A DNA stretch of 42,114 bases from Acidobacteriota bacterium (GTDB taxonomy: Bacteria > Acidobacteriota > Blastocatellia > Chloracidobacteriales > Chloracidobacteriaceae). The stretch covers positions 1 through 42,114 of the forward strand of contig JACQXX010000129.1 of assembly GCA_016208495.1 (NCBI GenBank), written 5' to 3'. Positions within the stretch are counted from its first letter, which is position 1. Every line of letters begins with the position of its first letter. Below are positions 4,025 through 42,114 of the stretch, in pieces. Under the pieces are notes generated by a model, which did no database searches, was not told where the DNA came from, and worked only from the letters and a program-made list of their open reading frames with translations. A program made the position numbers and the translations under genes.

Positions 4025-5674
4025 ATGCGAATTCCACTTGATCCACCAAAATTTACTGATTTAGTGCAAACGCTGGTGCGCCATGCCCTGACACCAGCCA
4101 TTGTGTTCTTACCCAGCCGCCGGGCCTGTGATGATGCGGTTGAATCGTTTCGCTCAATTCGTTCGGTTGGCCTGTCTTCTGACCAGATTGACCAGATTGA
4201 AGCCATTATTGACTCATTTGGGGACGAAGCACCATTCCTGCGGAAACATCGGCATTATTCGCTGGTCTTTCGAAAGGGAGTGGCGGCCCATCACGCCGGT
4301 CATTTGCCGGCCTGGAAGCATCTGGTTGAAAAACTTATGTCCTCCGGCTTGTTGCGGGCGGTTTTTTCAACCTCCACACTGGCTGCCGGAATTGATATGC
4401 CGGCGCGATCTGTGGTGATCACGGCCTCCAGTTTGCGAGGCGACGAGGGACACCGCGATATTAAAGCCTTCGAACTGGCCCAAATGACCGGGCGGGCTGG
4501 TCGTCGGGGACGTGACAAAGTTGGGTTTGCGGTGTTTATCCCCGGCCCATTTCAAGACATCCGCCTGATTCAAGAACGCCTGTTCCAACCACCAGAACCG
4601 ATTGAAAGCAGTTTCAATGCCAACTACACGATGGTACTCAATCTGCTCCAACAGCTTTCCCCAGAGTCGGCGCGGGCCCTGGTCGAACGGAGTTTCCTTC
4701 AGTTTCAGCGTATTGAGCAGGCCCAACGCCTCCGGCCACGGCTGGAACGTATTCAAAAACTGGTCAATGACGATGCTGCACAGTGCCCGGCTGGAAACCG
4801 GGTAAAAACAATCATGCGGTATCAGGAGCTGGAACACACGCTCAATCGTTCGCGCAAACAGGTCAAATCACTACGGCGCATGGTGGATCGCGAACAAGTT
4901 GCCGCCGGAATGGATCCGGAATGGACGAAAAGCTTGATGGAGGGCCTCGAAAAAGAGGAAACCACCCTCCGGACACTTCTGGCCAAACGCGATGATTTGC
5001 CGTGTGGGACCTGCTCGCAACTGAAACGTTGTCCGCAACGGGCCGGAGAAATCGCGCACAACTACGAAGAACTGACCCGCCTCGAAGACCGCATGGACAG
5101 CTTTGAACATGGTCTCTGGTCGGGCTTCGAAGACTGCGTCAAAATCCTGCAACACTTTGATTATATTGATGATAACTGGCGCCCAACTGAGCAGGGAAAC
5201 TGGGCGTCGTTTCTGCGGGTTGATAACACGCTGTTTATTGCCGAGTTGCTCCGCGATGGGTTTTTTGACACACCAGATGCCCGGACAATGGCGGCGCTGT
5301 GTGGTGGGTTAGCGGCTGAAGATCGTGATTTCACAACCAGTTATCACCAGCCGGAACCATTTCTGGCGACCCTGAGAAAAGCCGTTGGGATTGCCAAGGC
5401 GATTGAAGCGATTCAGGATCAGCATTCGTTTTACTGCCCAATGTGGATTGACAAAGAGGCCGCCAAACTGGTGTGGCTCTGGGGCGATGTCACCCGACCA
5501 TGGGAAGAGCTTTTGAAACTGACCGAAGCCAGCGAAGGCGATATTGTCCGATTGATTTTACGCACCGCTGACCTGCTCGGACAACTCACTGGATTGGTTG
5601 ATTCCCATCCACATATTGCCGCTCGCGCCCGCGAAGCTACCCGCCTGATCCGGCGACCGCCGATTGAGGAATGA
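4025..5674 (+). CDS. C-terminal half of a Ski2/Mtr4-like DEAD/DEAH helicase (N-terminal RecA domain absent)
   Basis: The 549-residue frame starts at the beginning of the second RecA domain: AIVFLPSRRACDDAV (motif IV region), AHHAGHLPAWK, FSTSTLAAGIDMPAR (motif V) and QMTGRAGRRGRD (motif VI, residues about 160-170). A Ski2-type C-terminal region follows, with a Cys cluster CGTCSQLKRC and a helical end. The ATP-binding Walker A motif and the DExH box of RecA domain 1 are missing. A TAA stop sits immediately before the ATG at 4025, no Shine-Dalgarno sequence is visible, and no upstream frame supplies the missing half. The remaining 549 codons are uninterrupted. It may be a recently 5'-truncated pseudogene or a retained non-catalytic fragment; ATP hydrolysis is not expected from this part alone. 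The stop TGA opens a TGACAAGG array. Confidence 0.7.
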   Translation: MRIPLDPPKFTDLVQTLVRHALTPAIVFLPSRRACDDAVESFRSIRSVGLSSDQIDQIEAIIDSFGDEAPFLRKHRHYSLVFRKGVAAHHAGHLPAWKHLVEKLMSSGLLRAVFSTSTLAAGIDMPARSVVITASSLRGDEGHRDIKAFELAQMTGRAGRRGRDKVGFAVFIPGPFQDIRLIQERLFQPPEPIESSFNANYTMVLNLLQQLSPESARALVERSFLQFQRIEQAQRLRPRLERIQKLVNDDAAQCPAGNRVKTIMRYQELEHTLNRSRKQVKSLRRMVDREQVAAGMDPEWTKSLMEGLEKEETTLRTLLAKRDDLPCGTCSQLKRCPQRAGEIAHNYEELTRLEDRMDSFEHGLWSGFEDCVKILQHFDYIDDNWRPTEQGNWASFLRVDNTLFIAELLRDGFFDTPDARTMAALCGGLAAEDRDFTTSYHQPEPFLATLRKAVGIAKAIEAIQDQHSFYCPMWIDKEAAKLVWLWGDVTRPWEELLKLTEASEGDIVRLILRTADLLGQLTGLVDSHPHIAARAREATRLIRRPPIEE

Positions 5675-6060
5675 CAAGGTGATAGAATGACAGGGTGACA
5701 AGGTGACAAGGTGACAAGGTGACAAAATGATCTAAGGGAGTCGGATGGAAATATCATACCACCAGGGTTCAGGGTTCAGGGCCAGATACTCCACGTTGAG
5801 TGGTACCCGCCAGTTCCCCAGTCTTCATCTTGAGTCGGATCAGTCAACTCATCGCCGAAACCCTGAACCCTGAACCCGATTTCAGTGGGATTTTATTTTC
5901 TTCTGGGTCCCTAAGTACCTTACCGAAAATTTCCAGGCATTTTTAACCACGAAATACGCGAAAAGAATCAAACACTTATCAGATCCAATATCTCAGGGAA
6001 CTTATGGCAAAGTACTTATTGTCACCCTGTCACCTTGTCACCCAGTCATCTTGTCACTGG
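5672..6060. repeat. Nested inverted arrays between convergent genes
   Basis: This 386-bp spacer separates two converging genes and holds no gene. Outer arms: GTGACAAG units from the helicase stop codon to about 5727 (plus) and the same units in reverse from about 6020 to 6058, next to the stop of the gene at 6061. Inner arms: GGGTTCAGGGTTCAGGG at 5765-5781 and its exact 17-base reverse complement at 5861-5877. Each outer array reads in the sense direction of the gene whose stop it touches. The whole could fold as a long cruciform or act as a bidirectional terminator. Confidence 0.85.
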
Positions 6061-10010: not shown

Positions 10011-10157
10011 GTGAGTGAAATAGCCAGGGAGCGAAGTAGTGAAATAGCGAACAAAAGCAAATAGTGAGTAGTCAGACATAGCTTCTGTCTCTATGTCACC
10101 TTGTCACCTTGTCATCTGTCACTCTGTTACCTTGTCACCTGTCATCCTGTCATCTTG
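10008..10157. repeat. Convergent TAGTGAA and TGACAAGG arrays
   Basis: From the kinase stop TAG the plus strand shows GTGAGTGAAATAGC-like units to about 10077. From 10083 the opposite strand shows TGACAAGG, TGACAGG and TGACAGAG units up to the histidine kinase stop at 10150, where AGA TGA CAGG supplies the TGA. Each array reads in the sense direction of its own gene. Confidence 0.85.
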
Positions 10158-12069
10158 TCGCGGCTTCGATCAATTCCTGCAGTTCATCAAATTTGTATTC
10201 TTTGAGCATGGCCTGAACGACCTCGGCCACATACCCATCAAGGTCAATAATCTGGTCAATGACTTGATTGGCGGCTTCGATATCACCTTCTAAAACCGCT
10301 TGATACAGGATGTTGAGGACATCCGCTGGGAGTTGAGCCAGTTGAGCGGGTGTAACCGAAGGGGCTTTCACCTTTTTGAGCGGGTACGCATCGGTAATTG
10401 TGTCAAACATATCAACTGCCAGTTCCTGGGTTTCCAGGTTGATTGGCAACCGGATGGTAAACGTGGTACCGACGTTTTCAGTGCTTTCACAGGAGATTGT
10501 TCCTCCGTGGGCTTCGATGATGCGGCGGCAGATTTCCAGGCCAAGTCCGGTGCCCTCTTCGCCTTTGGTCGAGAAAAATGGCTCCCAGATATGGTTGAGG
10601 TTTTCCAGGGAAATTCCGCTTCCATTATCGGAAATGGAAATGAGGGCATCGTTGCCGTCAACAGTCAGCAAAATCTGGATTTGCCCCTTATTTTCCTGTG
10701 TTGCCTCGGCTGCATTTCGGATCAAATTAATGATGACCTGTTCCAGTTTTTCATCATTAAAGGCCAGTTTGGGGGTTGCGGTGTAGGTAAACTCGACCTG
10801 CCGTTTGGAAATAATCGGATCGAGCCGCAACAGCGAAACTGTTTTTTCGAGCGTCGGTACGATAGGCCGGGCGCTTTTTTCATATTCGACGGGCCGATTC
10901 CGGGCAAATTCACGGATTTCCTCAACCAGTGCCAGGGCTCGCTTCTGACCGGTAATCACCATCTCCGCAAAGCGACTGACCTCCGGGTCATCAGCATATT
11001 TCTTTTGAATCACTTCAATACCGCTCAAGAGAGCCAGCCGATTGCGAAGTTCGTGTGAAATGGCAGACGTGATTTTACCGATTGTGGCCAGCCGTTCTGA
11101 TCGGACGAGTTGTTCTTGCGTCGCTCGCAATTCCTCGGTCAGGCGAATATTTTCAATGACGAGTCCGGCTTCCTGGGCCGTTGCCATGACAAATTCAAGG
11201 TCTTCGGAATCAAACAGGCCCGGCATATGGCTGTAGAGGTAGCACACGCCCCAGACCCGTTTTTTCGAATTGATCGGTGCTGACAGCACGGATGAAACCC
11301 GCTGGATAATCACGCTTTGCTGAGCTGAAAATCGCTCGTCGGTTGAGGCATCAGTCGAGCGGATGGCGACATTGTCCTGAAACGTCTGGGCGACGATGGT
11401 TCGGCTGACTTTGATTGATTCGGTATGGGTAATGTCGCGATTGCGTTGCGCCACCATCTCCAGTTCCTGGGTGACCGGGTTGAGCAGCATAATCGCGCCG
11501 CAATCAACCGGAAGACACCGAAACAGCGATTCAAGCCAGCTTTCGGTAAGGTCTTTGGTGCTCTGCATCGGGAGCATGGTGCGGGTGATTTCATACAGTG
11601 ATGTCAACCGCTCCAGCGTCCGGCCAGTGATATATTCCGGCTGACGCATCAACTCCAGGTTGATAAACCGGGCCTGGCGGGCAGTTAATCTCAGATCAAT
11701 TCGCGACGTGTCAATGGGGTTTAAGCTGCTGGTGGAAACGTAGGCTGGATATTCAAACTTCAATTTGGCGATGCTGGGGTCACCTAAAATGATTTCATCG
11801 CCAGGTTCGAGCAGGTATTCGTTGATGCGTTCGCCCTTGATAATCGTTCCGACCTTGCTGCCTTTATCCCGGAGCACATATTGCCCATCAGCAACCATGA
11901 GTATTTCAGCGTGCATGCGTGAAATCAGCGTGTCGCTGATTTGCAGATCGTTGTCAGTTCCGCGCCCAATCGAAAACACCGACCCTGGAATCTCGATCTT
12001 GGAGGGATTCATGCTTCTGCCCGTCACAATCAAGTACGGTTTGCGCAGCTCAGTTTGAAGTTCATCCAT
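10150..12069 (-). CDS. FHA-GAF sensor histidine kinase
   Basis: A cytoplasmic sensor kinase without transmembrane segments. Counting from the longer TTG start at 12135, domains are: FHA (about 50-128, with GRGTDNDLQISD and ISRMHAEI), GAF (about 175-335), dimerisation/phosphoacceptor box with His361 in SAISHELRN, and an ATPase domain with N box (INLIRNAAEA), G1 (SDNGSGI) and G2 (GTGLGLEI). The usual Pro of the SHELRNPL box is Arg. A C-terminal tail of about 70 residues after the kinase is helical and acidic. The ATG at 12069 is preferred because AAGG precedes it; the TTG at 12135 has no ribosome binding site. No response regulator is adjacent, so the partner is unknown. The FHA domain suggests input from Ser/Thr phosphorylation (family knowledge). 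Confidence 0.88.
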   Translation of the reverse strand: MDELQTELRKPYLIVTGRSMNPSKIEIPGSVFSIGRGTDNDLQISDTLISRMHAEILMVADGQYVLRDKGSKVGTIIKGERINEYLLEPGDEIILGDPSIAKLKFEYPAYVSTSSLNPIDTSRIDLRLTARQARFINLELMRQPEYITGRTLERLTSLYEITRTMLPMQSTKDLTESWLESLFRCLPVDCGAIMLLNPVTQELEMVAQRNRDITHTESIKVSRTIVAQTFQDNVAIRSTDASTDERFSAQQSVIIQRVSSVLSAPINSKKRVWGVCYLYSHMPGLFDSEDLEFVMATAQEAGLVIENIRLTEELRATQEQLVRSERLATIGKITSAISHELRNRLALLSGIEVIQKKYADDPEVSRFAEMVITGQKRALALVEEIREFARNRPVEYEKSARPIVPTLEKTVSLLRLDPIISKRQVEFTYTATPKLAFNDEKLEQVIINLIRNAAEATQENKGQIQILLTVDGNDALISISDNGSGISLENLNHIWEPFFSTKGEEGTGLGLEICRRIIEAHGGTISCESTENVGTTFTIRLPINLETQELAVDMFDTITDAYPLKKVKAPSVTPAQLAQLPADVLNILYQAVLEGDIEAANQVIDQIIDLDGYVAEVVQAMLKEYKFDELQELIEAATR

Positions 12070-12236: not shown

Positions 12237-12353
12237 ATAGGGGATGGATGACAGGGAGGCAAGGTGACTGGGTGATAAAGTGACTGGGGGACAAGGGGAC
12301 AAGGTGACTGGGTGATAAGGTGACTGGATTTTCTGATTACTCGCTACTCGCTA
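12237..12353. repeat. AAGGTGACTGGGTGATAA long direct repeat and TAGCGAG array
   Basis: A 28-base segment starting CAAGGTGACTGGGTGATAA occurs at 12254 and again at about 12300 with one difference, within a GGTGACAA-type array. At 12339-12353 the opposite strand carries TAGCGAG units that start in the purF stop codon (GAA TAG CGAGTAGCGAG). The spacer separates purF from the histidine kinase on the same strand. Confidence 0.85.
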
Positions 12354-35202: not shown

Positions 35203-37599
35203 ATGAGTTGTTTCTTATATAAGTTCAGGTATATCAACAAGTTACTTGTTATTCTCGGCGGGCTTTCAATCCTCCTGGGGGCGATTATGCCGGTGATTGC
35301 CCATCCACTTGGAAATTTCACGATCAATCATTTTGCCCGGTTGCAGGTGAGCAATGAGCGGGTAACCATTCGATATGTGATTGATATGGCTGAAATTCCG
35401 GCATTTCAGGAGATTCAGGCGGCTGACAAGGGACCCGACCAGCAACCGACGCGAGCCTGGTTAAATGCGTATAGTGAACGAGTCGTCGCTGAATATATCA
35501 ACGGGCTTGTTTTGACCGTAGATGCGACGCGGGTGCCGCTTCGCCCTCTTTCCAAAGCAATCTCCCTTCCGACTGGCAGTGGTGGACTTCCCACACTCCG
35601 AATTGAATGTGATCTGGTTGGTGAATTTCCCGCCGTTGTTTCGGTAAACCGTCGCATCCGATTTGAAGATACCAATTTTAAGGATCGTCTTGGGTGGCGC
35701 GAAGTTGTGGTTACTCCAGAGACTGGCATCTCAATTTTCAATAGCTCGGCTTATGGCTCGACGTTGACTGACGAATTAAAAGCCTATCCGGAAAGTTTGC
35801 TTACTGCCCCGCTTGATGAACGGCTGGCAGAATTTTCAATGACATCGGGGGCCGCGCCAGCAAATTCAGTCGCCCTTCAAACCCGTGAAGGTAAACCAGT
35901 TGTTCAAACTCGTGATCGGCTGGCCGAATTGATTGCCGTTCCCGAAGTAACCCCAACCATTGCCCTGATTGGGTTACTGATTGCCACGTTTCTGGGGGGC
36001 ATGCATGCCCTCTCACCTGGGCATGGGAAAGCCATTGTTGGCGCCTATCTGGTTGGGGCACGCGGCACCGCCCGCCACGCCGCATTTCTTGGTTTAACCG
36101 TGACCATTACCCACACGGCGGGAGTTTTGGCCCTTGGGGTGATAACCCTTTTTGCCTCACACTTTATCTTGCCAGAGCGCCTGTTTCCGATTTTAAGCTT
36201 ACTTTCAGGGTTAATCGTTGTGGGTGTTGGATTAAGGATGGCCTGGAGTCGGGCTCGACTGGCAATGGCTGGTCCAGGCCACTCACACGACCACCATCAT
36301 CACGACCATCACCATCACGATCACCATTCACATGACCATCATCATGGCGTGGGTGTGCATACCCACGATGGACACACTCATTCGCATCTGCCGCCGGGAT
36401 CTGGCGATGAACCGGTAACCTGGCGGAGCCTCCTGGCACTTGGTATTTCAGGTGGTTTGCTTCCTTGTCCTTCAGCCCTGGTTTTATTGCTCTCGGCGAT
36501 TTCCCTGCATCGGGTTGGGTATGGGTTGTTGCTGGTCTTGGCGTTTAGCTTCGGGTTAGCTGGTGTCTTGACTGTGGTGGGTCTGGCATTTGTGTATGCT
36601 GGGCGCTTTTTTGAATCAAAAACAAAAGAAACAACCACTGGAACAGTTGCCACGCTGAGCCGGTTGGCATTGCGCTACACCCCGGTTTTGAGCGCAGTAT
36701 TTATTACCTGTGTTGGAATTATCATTTGTTTTCAAACACTTCCGGACTTTAAGCCGCTGACGAGTTCGTCAACACCAGCGCCTGTTATCCAAAAAACTCC
36801 CCAAACCGAAGAAGAGCATGGTCCTTCGCTGGTTGGGCTTGGCGTATTGGGGGTATTAGGCTTAGGGCTGGTTTTTGGTCTCAAACACGCCACCGAAGCT
36901 GACCATGTGGTTGCGGTTTCAACCATCGTCAGCGAGCACAAAAGTCTTGGCCGTGCCGCTATCGTTGGCGGATTGTGGGGAATTGGTCACTCGATCTCGC
37001 TGGTTGTCGTGGGCTTGCTGGTGTTAATCCTCCGCATATTTATCCCCGACCAAATTGCACCCTGGTTGGATTGGGCTTCACCCTGGCTTGAATTTGGCGT
37101 TGCCCTGATGATTATCGGCCTTGGCGCCAATGCTTTATCCAAAGCACTTCGAAAACGGTCAGATGTTCACATTCACACCCACGATCATGATGGGACGCCA
37201 CACTCACATATTCATTTTCACGACCCTGGTACCGACCATGAGCAGGCGCATGCCCAGCATCTTCATTTTGTAAAACAGATTGGGTTAAAACCGTTGCTGG
37301 TTGGTGCCGCCCATGGTCTGGCTGGTTCGGCTGCCTTAACCCTGTTGGTGCTCAGTCAAATCCAGTCGCCGTTTCTCGGGTTGTTATATCTGACGGTGTT
37401 TGGCGTCGGATCAATCGGAGGAATGTTGGCGATGTCGGGGCTGGTTGGAATTCCCTTTATCCTCAGTGCAGTGTGGGTCAATCGCTTTCACCACGTTCTG
37501 CAAGTGGTGGCCAGTGTGTTTAGTATTTTGTTTGGCGTCTGGTATGCCGCGCAAAACGATGTGGTTCGGGGGATTCTCGCAACCGTACTTGGCACGTAG
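35203..37599 (+). CDS. double nickel/cobalt transporter fusion (NicO/RcnA-like plus UreH/NiCoT-like)
   Basis: A 798-residue protein. After a signal/anchor segment, residues about 34-245 form an extracytoplasmic domain (HPLGNFTINHFARLQVSN). Then comes a first transport module with GGMHALSPGHGKAIVGAY (His268, His274), the NicO/RcnA signature, and a His-rich loop (about 360-395). A second module starts at about 545 with GLKHATEADHVVAVS (His562, Asp567, His568), the NiCoT/UreH-type signature, and carries its own His-rich loop (about 655-690, HIHTHDHD and HSHIHFHD). The two modules together give at least 12 helices. Ni2+ or Co2+ transport is expected; direction (uptake or efflux) is not clear since each signature type belongs to different functions. 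NikR follows. The TAG stop runs straight into a GGGGCTAA array. Confidence 0.88.
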   Translation: MSCFLYKFRYINKLLVILGGLSILLGAIMPVIAHPLGNFTINHFARLQVSNERVTIRYVIDMAEIPAFQEIQAADKGPDQQPTRAWLNAYSERVVAEYINGLVLTVDATRVPLRPLSKAISLPTGSGGLPTLRIECDLVGEFPAVVSVNRRIRFEDTNFKDRLGWREVVVTPETGISIFNSSAYGSTLTDELKAYPESLLTAPLDERLAEFSMTSGAAPANSVALQTREGKPVVQTRDRLAELIAVPEVTPTIALIGLLIATFLGGMHALSPGHGKAIVGAYLVGARGTARHAAFLGLTVTITHTAGVLALGVITLFASHFILPERLFPILSLLSGLIVVGVGLRMAWSRARLAMAGPGHSHDHHHHDHHHHDHHSHDHHHGVGVHTHDGHTHSHLPPGSGDEPVTWRSLLALGISGGLLPCPSALVLLLSAISLHRVGYGLLLVLAFSFGLAGVLTVVGLAFVYAGRFFESKTKETTTGTVATLSRLALRYTPVLSAVFITCVGIIICFQTLPDFKPLTSSSTPAPVIQKTPQTEEEHGPSLVGLGVLGVLGLGLVFGLKHATEADHVVAVSTIVSEHKSLGRAAIVGGLWGIGHSISLVVVGLLVLILRIFIPDQIAPWLDWASPWLEFGVALMIIGLGANALSKALRKRSDVHIHTHDHDGTPHSHIHFHDPGTDHEQAHAQHLHFVKQIGLKPLLVGAAHGLAGSAALTLLVLSQIQSPFLGLLYLTVFGVGSIGGMLAMSGLVGIPFILSAVWVNRFHHVLQVVASVFSILFGVWYAAQNDVVRGILATVLGT

Positions 37600-37600
37600 A

Positions 37601-37802
37601 GGTTGGGGCTAAGGGCTTGGGGCCATAAGCACCAGGATAAGAAACCCCGTGTCCTTTCCGTTGGCATTGAACGACGATCTTGTAGGGTTTGGATCTCGTC
37701 CTGGCCGTGACCGTGGGCTTCGCACCACGGCTATTACACAACGACCCTGCGGGCCTCAAATCCTTATCCTGGCGCATATGGGGGTTGGGGCTGAGGGTTT
37801 GG
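37601..37802. mobile_element. 147-bp MITE-like element inside a GGGGCTGA array
   Basis: Imperfect terminal inverted repeats of 15 bases, GCACCAGGATAAGAA at 37629-37643 and TCCTTATCCTGGCGC at 37761-37775 (13 of 15 pair), enclose 147 bases. A hairpin CCGTGG-8-CCACGG lies inside (37711-37730). The flanks are a direct repeat: GGTTGGGGCTAAGGGCTTGG (37601-37620) and GGTTGGGGCTGAGGGTTTGG (37783-37802), 18 of 20 identical. No transposase frame is present; an antisense open frame across it is not supported. Confidence 0.6.
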
Positions 37803-37859
37803 AAATCAATCTCTTTCAATAACGGAAGAACCAAAAACCAGGCACGAATAAGGTGAACT

Positions 37860-38327
37860 ATGGGTGAACTTGTCCGGTTTGGCGTCAGCATCGAAGACGA
37901 ATTGCTTGAAAAGTTTGACCATCTGGTCAGTACCCGTGGGTATGCGACCCGCTCGGAAGCGCTCCGCGATTTGATCCGCGATGCACTCGTCCAGGCTCGA
38001 TTGGAGTCACGAAGTGCGGAGACCGATCCGGAAGTTGTTGGAAGTCTGACCTTTGTGTATGACCATCACGCCCGAAACCTCTCTACCCAAATGGCTGAAA
38101 AGCAGCATGCCAACCACGACATCGTGGTTTCCGTCACCCACGTTCACATTGACCACCACGATTGCATGGAAGTGCTGTTGCTTCGTGGCAGCGTCAGCCG
38201 GGTCCGTGCCCTGGCCGATTCAATCCTGAACTTAAAAGGAATTAAGCACGGCAAGTTATTTGTTACCTTTCCATCGCATTCGATTGAAAAACACGACCAT
38301 CAGTCCCACTCACAGAAAGCTTCGTGA
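37860..38327 (+). CDS. nikR: nickel-responsive transcriptional regulator NikR
   Basis: A ribbon-helix-helix repressor with a C-terminal ACT-type nickel-binding domain. The DNA-binding part is VRFGVSIEDELLEKFD with RGYATRSEALRDLIR. The high-affinity nickel ligands match NikR: His83, His94 and His96 (THVHIDHH) and Cys102 (DCMEV), with the same spacing as His76/His87/His89/Cys95 of E. coli. Length 155 is slightly longer than E. coli NikR because of a His/Ser-rich tail. TAAGGTG precedes the ATG. Its position right after the Ni/Co transporter makes that gene the likely target. Confidence 0.95.
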   Translation: MGELVRFGVSIEDELLEKFDHLVSTRGYATRSEALRDLIRDALVQARLESRSAETDPEVVGSLTFVYDHHARNLSTQMAEKQHANHDIVVSVTHVHIDHHDCMEVLLLRGSVSRVRALADSILNLKGIKHGKLFVTFPSHSIEKHDHQSHSQKAS

Positions 38328-42000: not shown

Positions 42001-42114
42001 ACCCTGAACCCTGAACCCTGAACCCTTTAGTGATTAGTGATTAGTGATTAGTGATAAGTGATTAGTGATTAGTGATTAGTGATTAGTGATTAGTGATTAG
42101 TGATTAGTGATTAG
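42001..42114. repeat. ACCCTGA and TTAGTGA heptamer arrays at the window end
   Basis: Almost four copies of ACCCTGA (42001-42027) switch directly to at least 12.6 copies of TTAGTGA (42027-42114), with a single variant unit TAAGTGA at 42048-42054. The array continues beyond the window. Unlike the others it starts about 45 bases after the preceding stop codon. Confidence 0.95.

Follow-up and report, generated by a model that had tools for sequence, protein, structure and literature searches.

The window, the whole 42,114-nucleotide stretch of DNA analyzed, is one contig (C129) of an 8.38-Mb Acidobacteriota draft genome in 177 contigs. It carries a NicO-type nickel transporter gene followed by nikR, and a short element with terminal inverted repeats lies in the gap between them. 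The features of the locus are listed in Table 1. The initial annotation had proposed a miniature inverted-repeat element (MITE) of 147 bp at this point. Matches to PF03824 and PF08753 bear out its position between the Ni transporter and nikR, and the internal hairpin described there is present; the length is corrected to 157 bp. Terminal inverted repeats, given as 15 bp with 13 of 15 positions pairing, do exist, but they are 18 bp long and pair at 16/18 positions in the window copy, the family consensus being CATAAGCGCCAGGATAAG.

Table 1. Features at the nickel locus (window coordinates)
Feature	Position	Strand	Basis or remark
NicO-type nickel transporter gene, upstream neighbour (context only)	35203..37599	+	PF03824
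Degenerate heptamer-like array, left part, recipient of the element	37601..37623	+	weak 7-periodicity at the window copy
Target duplication, left copy GGGCTTGGGGC, 11 bp	37613..37623	+	
Type A MITE copy, 157 bp	37624..37780	+	end-to-end alignment with other copies
Left terminal inverted repeat CATAAGCACCAGGATAAG	37624..37641	+	16/18 against right end; one mismatch to family consensus
Core hairpin CCGTGGGCTTCGCACCACGG, nearly invariant; part of a module of about 50 bp	37711..37730	+	
Second small hairpin CCCTGCGGG of the core module	37745..37753	+	
Right terminal inverted repeat CATATGCGCCAGGATAAG, read inward	37763..37780	-	one mismatch to family consensus
Target duplication, right copy GGGGTTGGGGC, 10/11 against left	37781..37791	+	
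Degenerate heptamer-like array, right part	37781..37802	+	weak 7-periodicity at the window copy
nikR, downstream neighbour (context only)	37860..38327	+	PF08753, PF01402

Direct repeats of 20 bp had also been described at the flanks. They exist (18/20 by eye) but are degenerate array sequence, the target duplication itself being 11 bp long with a spacing of 168 bp between its copies. The 20-bp repeat falls within a 29-nt repeat of 182-bp spacing, and its register is offset from that of the 11-bp duplication by 14 bp, i.e. two heptamers. The best 7-periodicity around the window copy was 0.67, under the threshold of 0.75, and across the joined site period 7 (0.47) scored no better than period 6 (0.48). 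The window copy is thus a poor example of array insertion and its own array is weak. A mechanical minus-strand ORF of 123 aa (37520-37891) spans the element and both flanks; it is not taken for a gene, and the element has no coding capacity. Elsewhere in the window, a nearly perfect TTAGTGA heptamer array of 12.6 copies (42027-42114) reaches the contig end.

The analysis of the genome revealed a large family of related elements. The end word GCGCCAGGATAAG with at most one mismatch occurs 304 times in 8.38 Mb and its reversed control not once; the 18-mer end with up to two mismatches gave 301 matches in the same genome and none for the control. These 301-304 ends correspond to roughly 150 copies, and the family is well over a hundred copies strong. 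The genome search suggested in the initial annotation thus returned a multicopy family in place of a single copy. A query of 221 bases had at least 52 matches in this genome, the best 40 of 390 candidates being scored. Copies were collected from 25 contigs (2,242,423 bp), which are not a random sample because they were picked for holding matches. This sample contained 75 end pairs, and 61 copies with at most four mismatches in both ends and a length below 600 bp were curated; the other 14 pairs, with more than four mismatches in an end or a length of 600 bp or more, were excluded before the counts. One pair of 1860 bp on C95 was considered as a full insertion sequence (IS) and rejected, its weak ends being paired across a long open frame.

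Sorted by keyword, the 61 curated copies comprise 38 of type A, which are like the window copy, 11 of type B and 12 unclassified. Type A is 152-159 bp long in 36 of 38 copies, with a mean pairwise identity of 86% (36 copies); among the matches listed, the closest to the window copy are those on C48 and C60, at 97% identity. Type B is 169-266 bp long and has GACAAGG-like repeats in its interior. Overall, members are mostly 152-218 bp and hold no gene of their own, and both ends are perfect in 15/61. In type B elements such as C3:50257, C30:12571 and C70:325996 the family ends enclose GACAAGG-like repeats on both arms, and the type B interior resembles octamer arrays at positions 5672-5725, 10094-10159 and 12249-12324 of the window. 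Some copies are composite, with A joined to a B-like part or B split by another repeat (C136:11696-11978, C19:123142-123407 and C93:7518-8064). No copies were found in plasmid and phage collections at E<=1e-5, and the sole match in 57 further genomes, searched from the closest kin outwards, was a fragment of 30 bp in one of them (G015). No description of the element was found among published titles and the opening lines of abstracts, and one may still exist in print. This is a new MITE family, ordinary in kind, and a considerable share of the repetitive DNA between genes in this Acidobacteriota genome belongs to it.

The flanks of the copies repeat over a fixed length. An 11-bp duplication matching at 10 or more positions is present in 31/61 curated copies, against 0.74% in a control in which left flanks were matched with right flanks of other copies. 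The match is 11/11 in 18 copies, 10/11 in 13, 9/11 in two and 8/11 or lower in 28. Over all 75 pairs, exactly 11 flank positions had high identity (0.57-0.75), with values of mostly 0.1-0.2 beyond them in both directions. Copies lacking a good duplication are as expected if they are old or rearranged, yet they equally limit the claim. In the duplicated target, positions 1-3 and 9-11 are mostly G or C, T being commonest at position 5 and A at position 7, and T.A recurs at plus and minus 7 around the target. The motif around the insertion, TSA-GSSCTNAGSSC-TSA, is itself 7-periodic. In the 14 non-array copies listed, G/C-rich ends were kept in most and the outer T.A was not evident by eye. Literal GGGN5CCC is found in few targets.

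Empty sites were sought in the 2.24-Mb sample with queries in which the two flanks met at a single copy of the duplication. A match across the empty junction at E<1e-20 was obtained for 15/61 copies, all of them paralogous. By eye, three of these are gapped in the duplicated stretch, two are plain octamer arrays and one is mainly left-sided, and nine good matches remain. Examples among these nine, each at a site outside arrays, are C82:35918 against C3:41133-40989 (86% over 148 bp), C40:13295 against C48:60217-60071 (89% over 150) and C9:11106 against C82:4756-4645 (84% over 113 bp). The window copy had no partner in this strict test and had only a weak match of 72% over 87 nt. Inspection of empty sites, also proposed in the initial annotation, thus succeeded with paralogous sites, while the orthologous comparison yielded no site: nikR is present in 2/19 related genomes (G011 and G013) and the transporter is not within the fetched flanks of either locus. 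Several insertions have their empty site in a dispersed intergenic repeat composed of heptamer blocks (GGGATGA, CAGCCCT); one example is C82:42086-41970, and there are over twenty similar matches. With many copies, conserved ends, 11-bp duplications and paralogous empty sites, the MITE call is borne out.

A transposase gene with matching ends had been suggested as a further check. In the assembly itself, searches with PF01609, NF033592 and P0001 (a transposase of genome G059, described below) found no IS4-type transposase with the family ends. There are two PF01609 genes, and their fetched flanks contain no family end at up to six mismatches; one of the genes begins at a contig end, and one flank is missing there. 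NF033592 gave one weak match, in one of the same two genes, and the best match of P0001 had an E of 0.62. An IS may be collapsed or unassembled here, because the assembly is a draft of 177 contigs.

Relatives do have IS4-type transposases with CATAAGCGC ends. Among 30 DDE_Tnp_1 loci in eight genomes, there are two (G116 and G059) in which a CATAAGCGC end without mismatch closely follows the gene. Both transposases have the YREK motif, and P0001, the one tested against NCBIfam, exceeds the cut-off of NF033592 (IS4_1). No left end was found at either locus, the G116 contig starting inside the gene. Nine relatives came from a genome_contigs scan; judging by sequence and ends, two of them, in MAGs of an Acidobacteria bacterium and of Candidatus Fischerbacteria, appear to be the G059 and G116 loci themselves. 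Near the gene, 6/8 scanned loci carry an end that differs from CATAAGCGC at one position or none. A complete IS of 1524 bp in a Methanomicrobiales MAG is flanked by an 11/11 duplication, GGGGGCTCCCT. In Rhizobium, an IS4-type element whose ends are CATATGCGC shows an 11/11 duplication, and an IS4-type gene lies between CATGCGCATCAGGCTAAG ends in G013, a genome of the same order as ours.

The ends were also followed through the phylum. In 396 genomes the 18-mer had 1-5 matches in 53 genomes besides our own, the reversed control matching in a similar number; paired ends among these matches were seen only in G291 and our own genome. A narrower degenerate end pattern matched 12/247 genomes, our own included. 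With CATAAGCGCTAAGATAAG at up to three mismatches there were 65 matches in G276 (control 5), 19 in G240 (control 6) and 11 in G291 (control 8). In G276 many of the 65 matches, which are of the CATAAGCGCTCAAATAAG type, sit no more than a few hundred bases from where a contig stops, a pattern that would fit repeats interrupting the assembly. These three genomes hold MITEs of 112-222 bp between CATAAGCGC or CTTAAGCGC ends, and five such short elements have a perfect 10- or 11-bp duplication in three cases and 8/10 in two. Their ends diverge from our family after position 9, and their flanks are mostly palindromic sites of the GGGN5CCC or CCCN5GGG type and not heptamer arrays.

Among the closest known systems is IS421 of E. 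coli (1339 bp; protein identity about 36%), whose ends CATAAGCGCTAACTTAAG pair at 18/18 positions. The ends of IS421 and of the MITE both begin with CATAAGCGC and close with TAAG, 14/18 bases being common; the duplication of IS421 in the single record examined was not clear (0.6 over 10). For IS186B (1,338 bp), a trap experiment in the available text of PMC12102499 gave an 11-bp duplication, GGGGTGCCCCC, in a GGGN5CCC target. IS421 and IS186 are ISs of 1.34 kb with a transposase, whereas our family is mostly much shorter and gene-less. Table 1 of PMC2266710 gives the ends of the IS231 subgroup as CAT-------AA--TAA with repeats of 10-12 bp. The MITE consensus agrees with this mask at 7/8 marked positions, and a variant in the same genome, CATAAGCGCCAAGATAAG, at 8/8. 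MIC231 carries passenger genes. It appears in the reference titles of PMC2266710 as a mobile cassette related to IS231. Neither IS186 nor IS421 is mentioned in the portion of the main text of PMC2266710 available, and their grouping with IS231 is our own.

We therefore read the element as a non-autonomous MITE of the IS4 transposase family with IS186/IS421-type ends, and put the probability of this at about 0.88. We infer that it was mobilized in trans by cut and paste and that its partner transposase was lost or is unassembled in this genome. A DDE transposase supplied in trans would bind the 18-bp CATAAGCGC... ends, and the element, moved by cut and paste, would be joined to target strands 11 bp apart; gap repair after joining would then leave the 11-bp duplication. 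The enzyme would prefer targets whose two ends are rich in G and C (SSS-N5-SSS), the ideal being GGGN5CCC-like with a central T.A. The family shows ends of the IS186/IS421 type at a great distance from enterobacteria, and relatives that bear a transposase are present in Acidobacteriota and in methanogen MAGs.

The initial annotation had also suggested that the element may target or generate heptamer arrays. A 7- or 8-periodic stretch was present at 25/61 reconstructed sites and at 499 of 3000 random intergenic points (16.6%; Fisher p 7.6e-6). The p value ranged from 7.6e-6 to 0.0055 across five settings, others giving 17/61 against 393/3000 (p 0.0019) and 14/61 against 325/3000 (p 0.0055). With 0.85 over 21 positions as the setting, arrays were found at 13/38 copies of type A and 0/11 of type B. 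The array score was below 0.6 at 29/61 copies, 12 of which have a duplication of 10/11 or better, and about half of the copies sit outside arrays. Targeting of arrays thus holds as a preference but not as a rule.

Enrichment at the element borders is also what one would see if the element made the arrays, its duplications and excision scars growing into tandem repeats. The register of the arrays speaks against this. For copies flanked on one or both sides by a 7-bp array (n=20) it was best restored by removing 4, 11 or 18 bp along with the element (0.68, 0.62 and 0.42; 0.17-0.39 for other lengths), and for copies in 8-bp arrays (n=6) by removing 3, 11 or 19 bp (0.58, 0.54 and 0.56; others 0.10-0.33). 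Only removal of 11 bp restores both registers, which requires that the array was there first. Moreover, an 11-bp duplication is no multiple of 7 or 8, uninterrupted array versions of the same sites exist, and of the 298 arrays in the sample with strict 7-periodicity, just 8 have a curated element 40 bp away or closer. Generation of arrays by the element is already contradicted by these data, and we regard it as very improbable. Because removing the element and 11 bp restores the register, the arrays are older than the element; the order of events was arrays first and element second, and arrays are preferred targets of the element and not its products.

A stronger version of this preference, that heptamer arrays are genomic landing pads for the transposition system with each unit offering an ideal site, is conceivable but rather unlikely. 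The target motif is 7-periodic, and therefore a (GGGCTGA)n-like array would give an ideal site in each unit. Direct recognition of arrays is no more than a candidate reading, since insertions in arrays supply part of the 7-periodicity of the motif. If landing pads were real, the two repeat systems would be coupled, and the arrays would absorb an otherwise harmful orphan MITE and concentrate it away from promoters. The preference for arrays in itself offers a concrete and testable tie of simple repeats to the choice of transposition target.

Other reports connect, or do not connect, such repeats with mobile DNA. BrickBuilt, a MITE of Porphyromonas gingivalis, has a 23-nt tandem repeat inside it (available text of PMC4596501). 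Our family is similar in that a MITE is tied to tandem repeats, and type B copies hold short GACAAGG-like repeats; in contrast, no array of the 23-nt type was seen in the type A copy of the window, and the arrays lie outside the element. The G-rich intergenic heptamer repeats of Xanthomonas and Nostoc are, in the part of PMC4692102 available, generally without association with mobile elements. The arrays described here are likewise intergenic and G-rich, but in this genome they are preferred landing sites.

Gene context was counted from greedy ORFs rather than gene-finder calls. On that basis 11/61 copies lie inside an ORF, mostly a short one, although two of the ORFs are of 217 and 311 aa. 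Only 1/54 copies is in a divergent gap, against 22% expected from the share of intergenic length (p 1.8e-5), and 24/36 copies in tandem gaps are closer to the upstream stop. Copies would gather in arrays and behind genes because the common intergenic heptamer and octamer arrays repeat suitable sites. The simplest reading of the avoidance of divergent gaps is selection against promoter damage.

The same avoidance could be expected of a conserved structured RNA or a regulator of the nickel locus, such as a terminator, riboswitch or NikR operator, and the core hairpin pairs are intact in 35 or 36 of 36 copies. However, many copies adjoin different genes, and type A copies show no preference of orientation (11 same, 10 opposite). 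The window has no Rfam match at the gathering threshold, and no promoter- or terminator-like site was found at 37560-37880. NikR-box-like matches number 12 in the window against a mean of 10.4 by chance, none of them in the element. Compensatory changes are absent from the core hairpin, which gives no evidence of covariation because its pairs hardly vary; a helix of five pairs (29-36/63-70) has changes on both sides in up to 11/36 copies, a weak signal. An RNA or regulatory function is not supported and seems highly unlikely beside the MITE reading.

The core of type A is a double hairpin of about 50 bp, CCGTGGGCTTCGCACCACGGCTATT...CCCTGCGGGCC, and is the most conserved part of the element (0.99 over positions 91-110). 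A 23-base word of the core with up to two mismatches occurs 139 times in this genome and not at all in 97 relatives. In the sample, 27/71 core matches lie outside paired ends, some with one end and others with none visible. Transposition by Y1 enzymes is not expected to leave duplications at REP elements. A REP/REPIN-like identity, with movement by a RAYT (Y1) transposase, would suit a short, palindromic, multicopy and mostly intergenic sequence whose core also occurs without paired ends, but the 11-bp duplications and 18-bp IS4-type terminal inverted repeats are DDE features that largely refute it for the whole element and leave it with hardly any likelihood, a refutation that does not reach the core module without ends. 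That module may have existed earlier as a repeat that the MITE then took up, or it may be what remains of the MITE. Examples outside MITE ends are C70:14601-14648, C123:15994-16040 and a tandem pair at C93:3461-3558, and a relative of the module lies within an open frame with arrays on C122 (L118).
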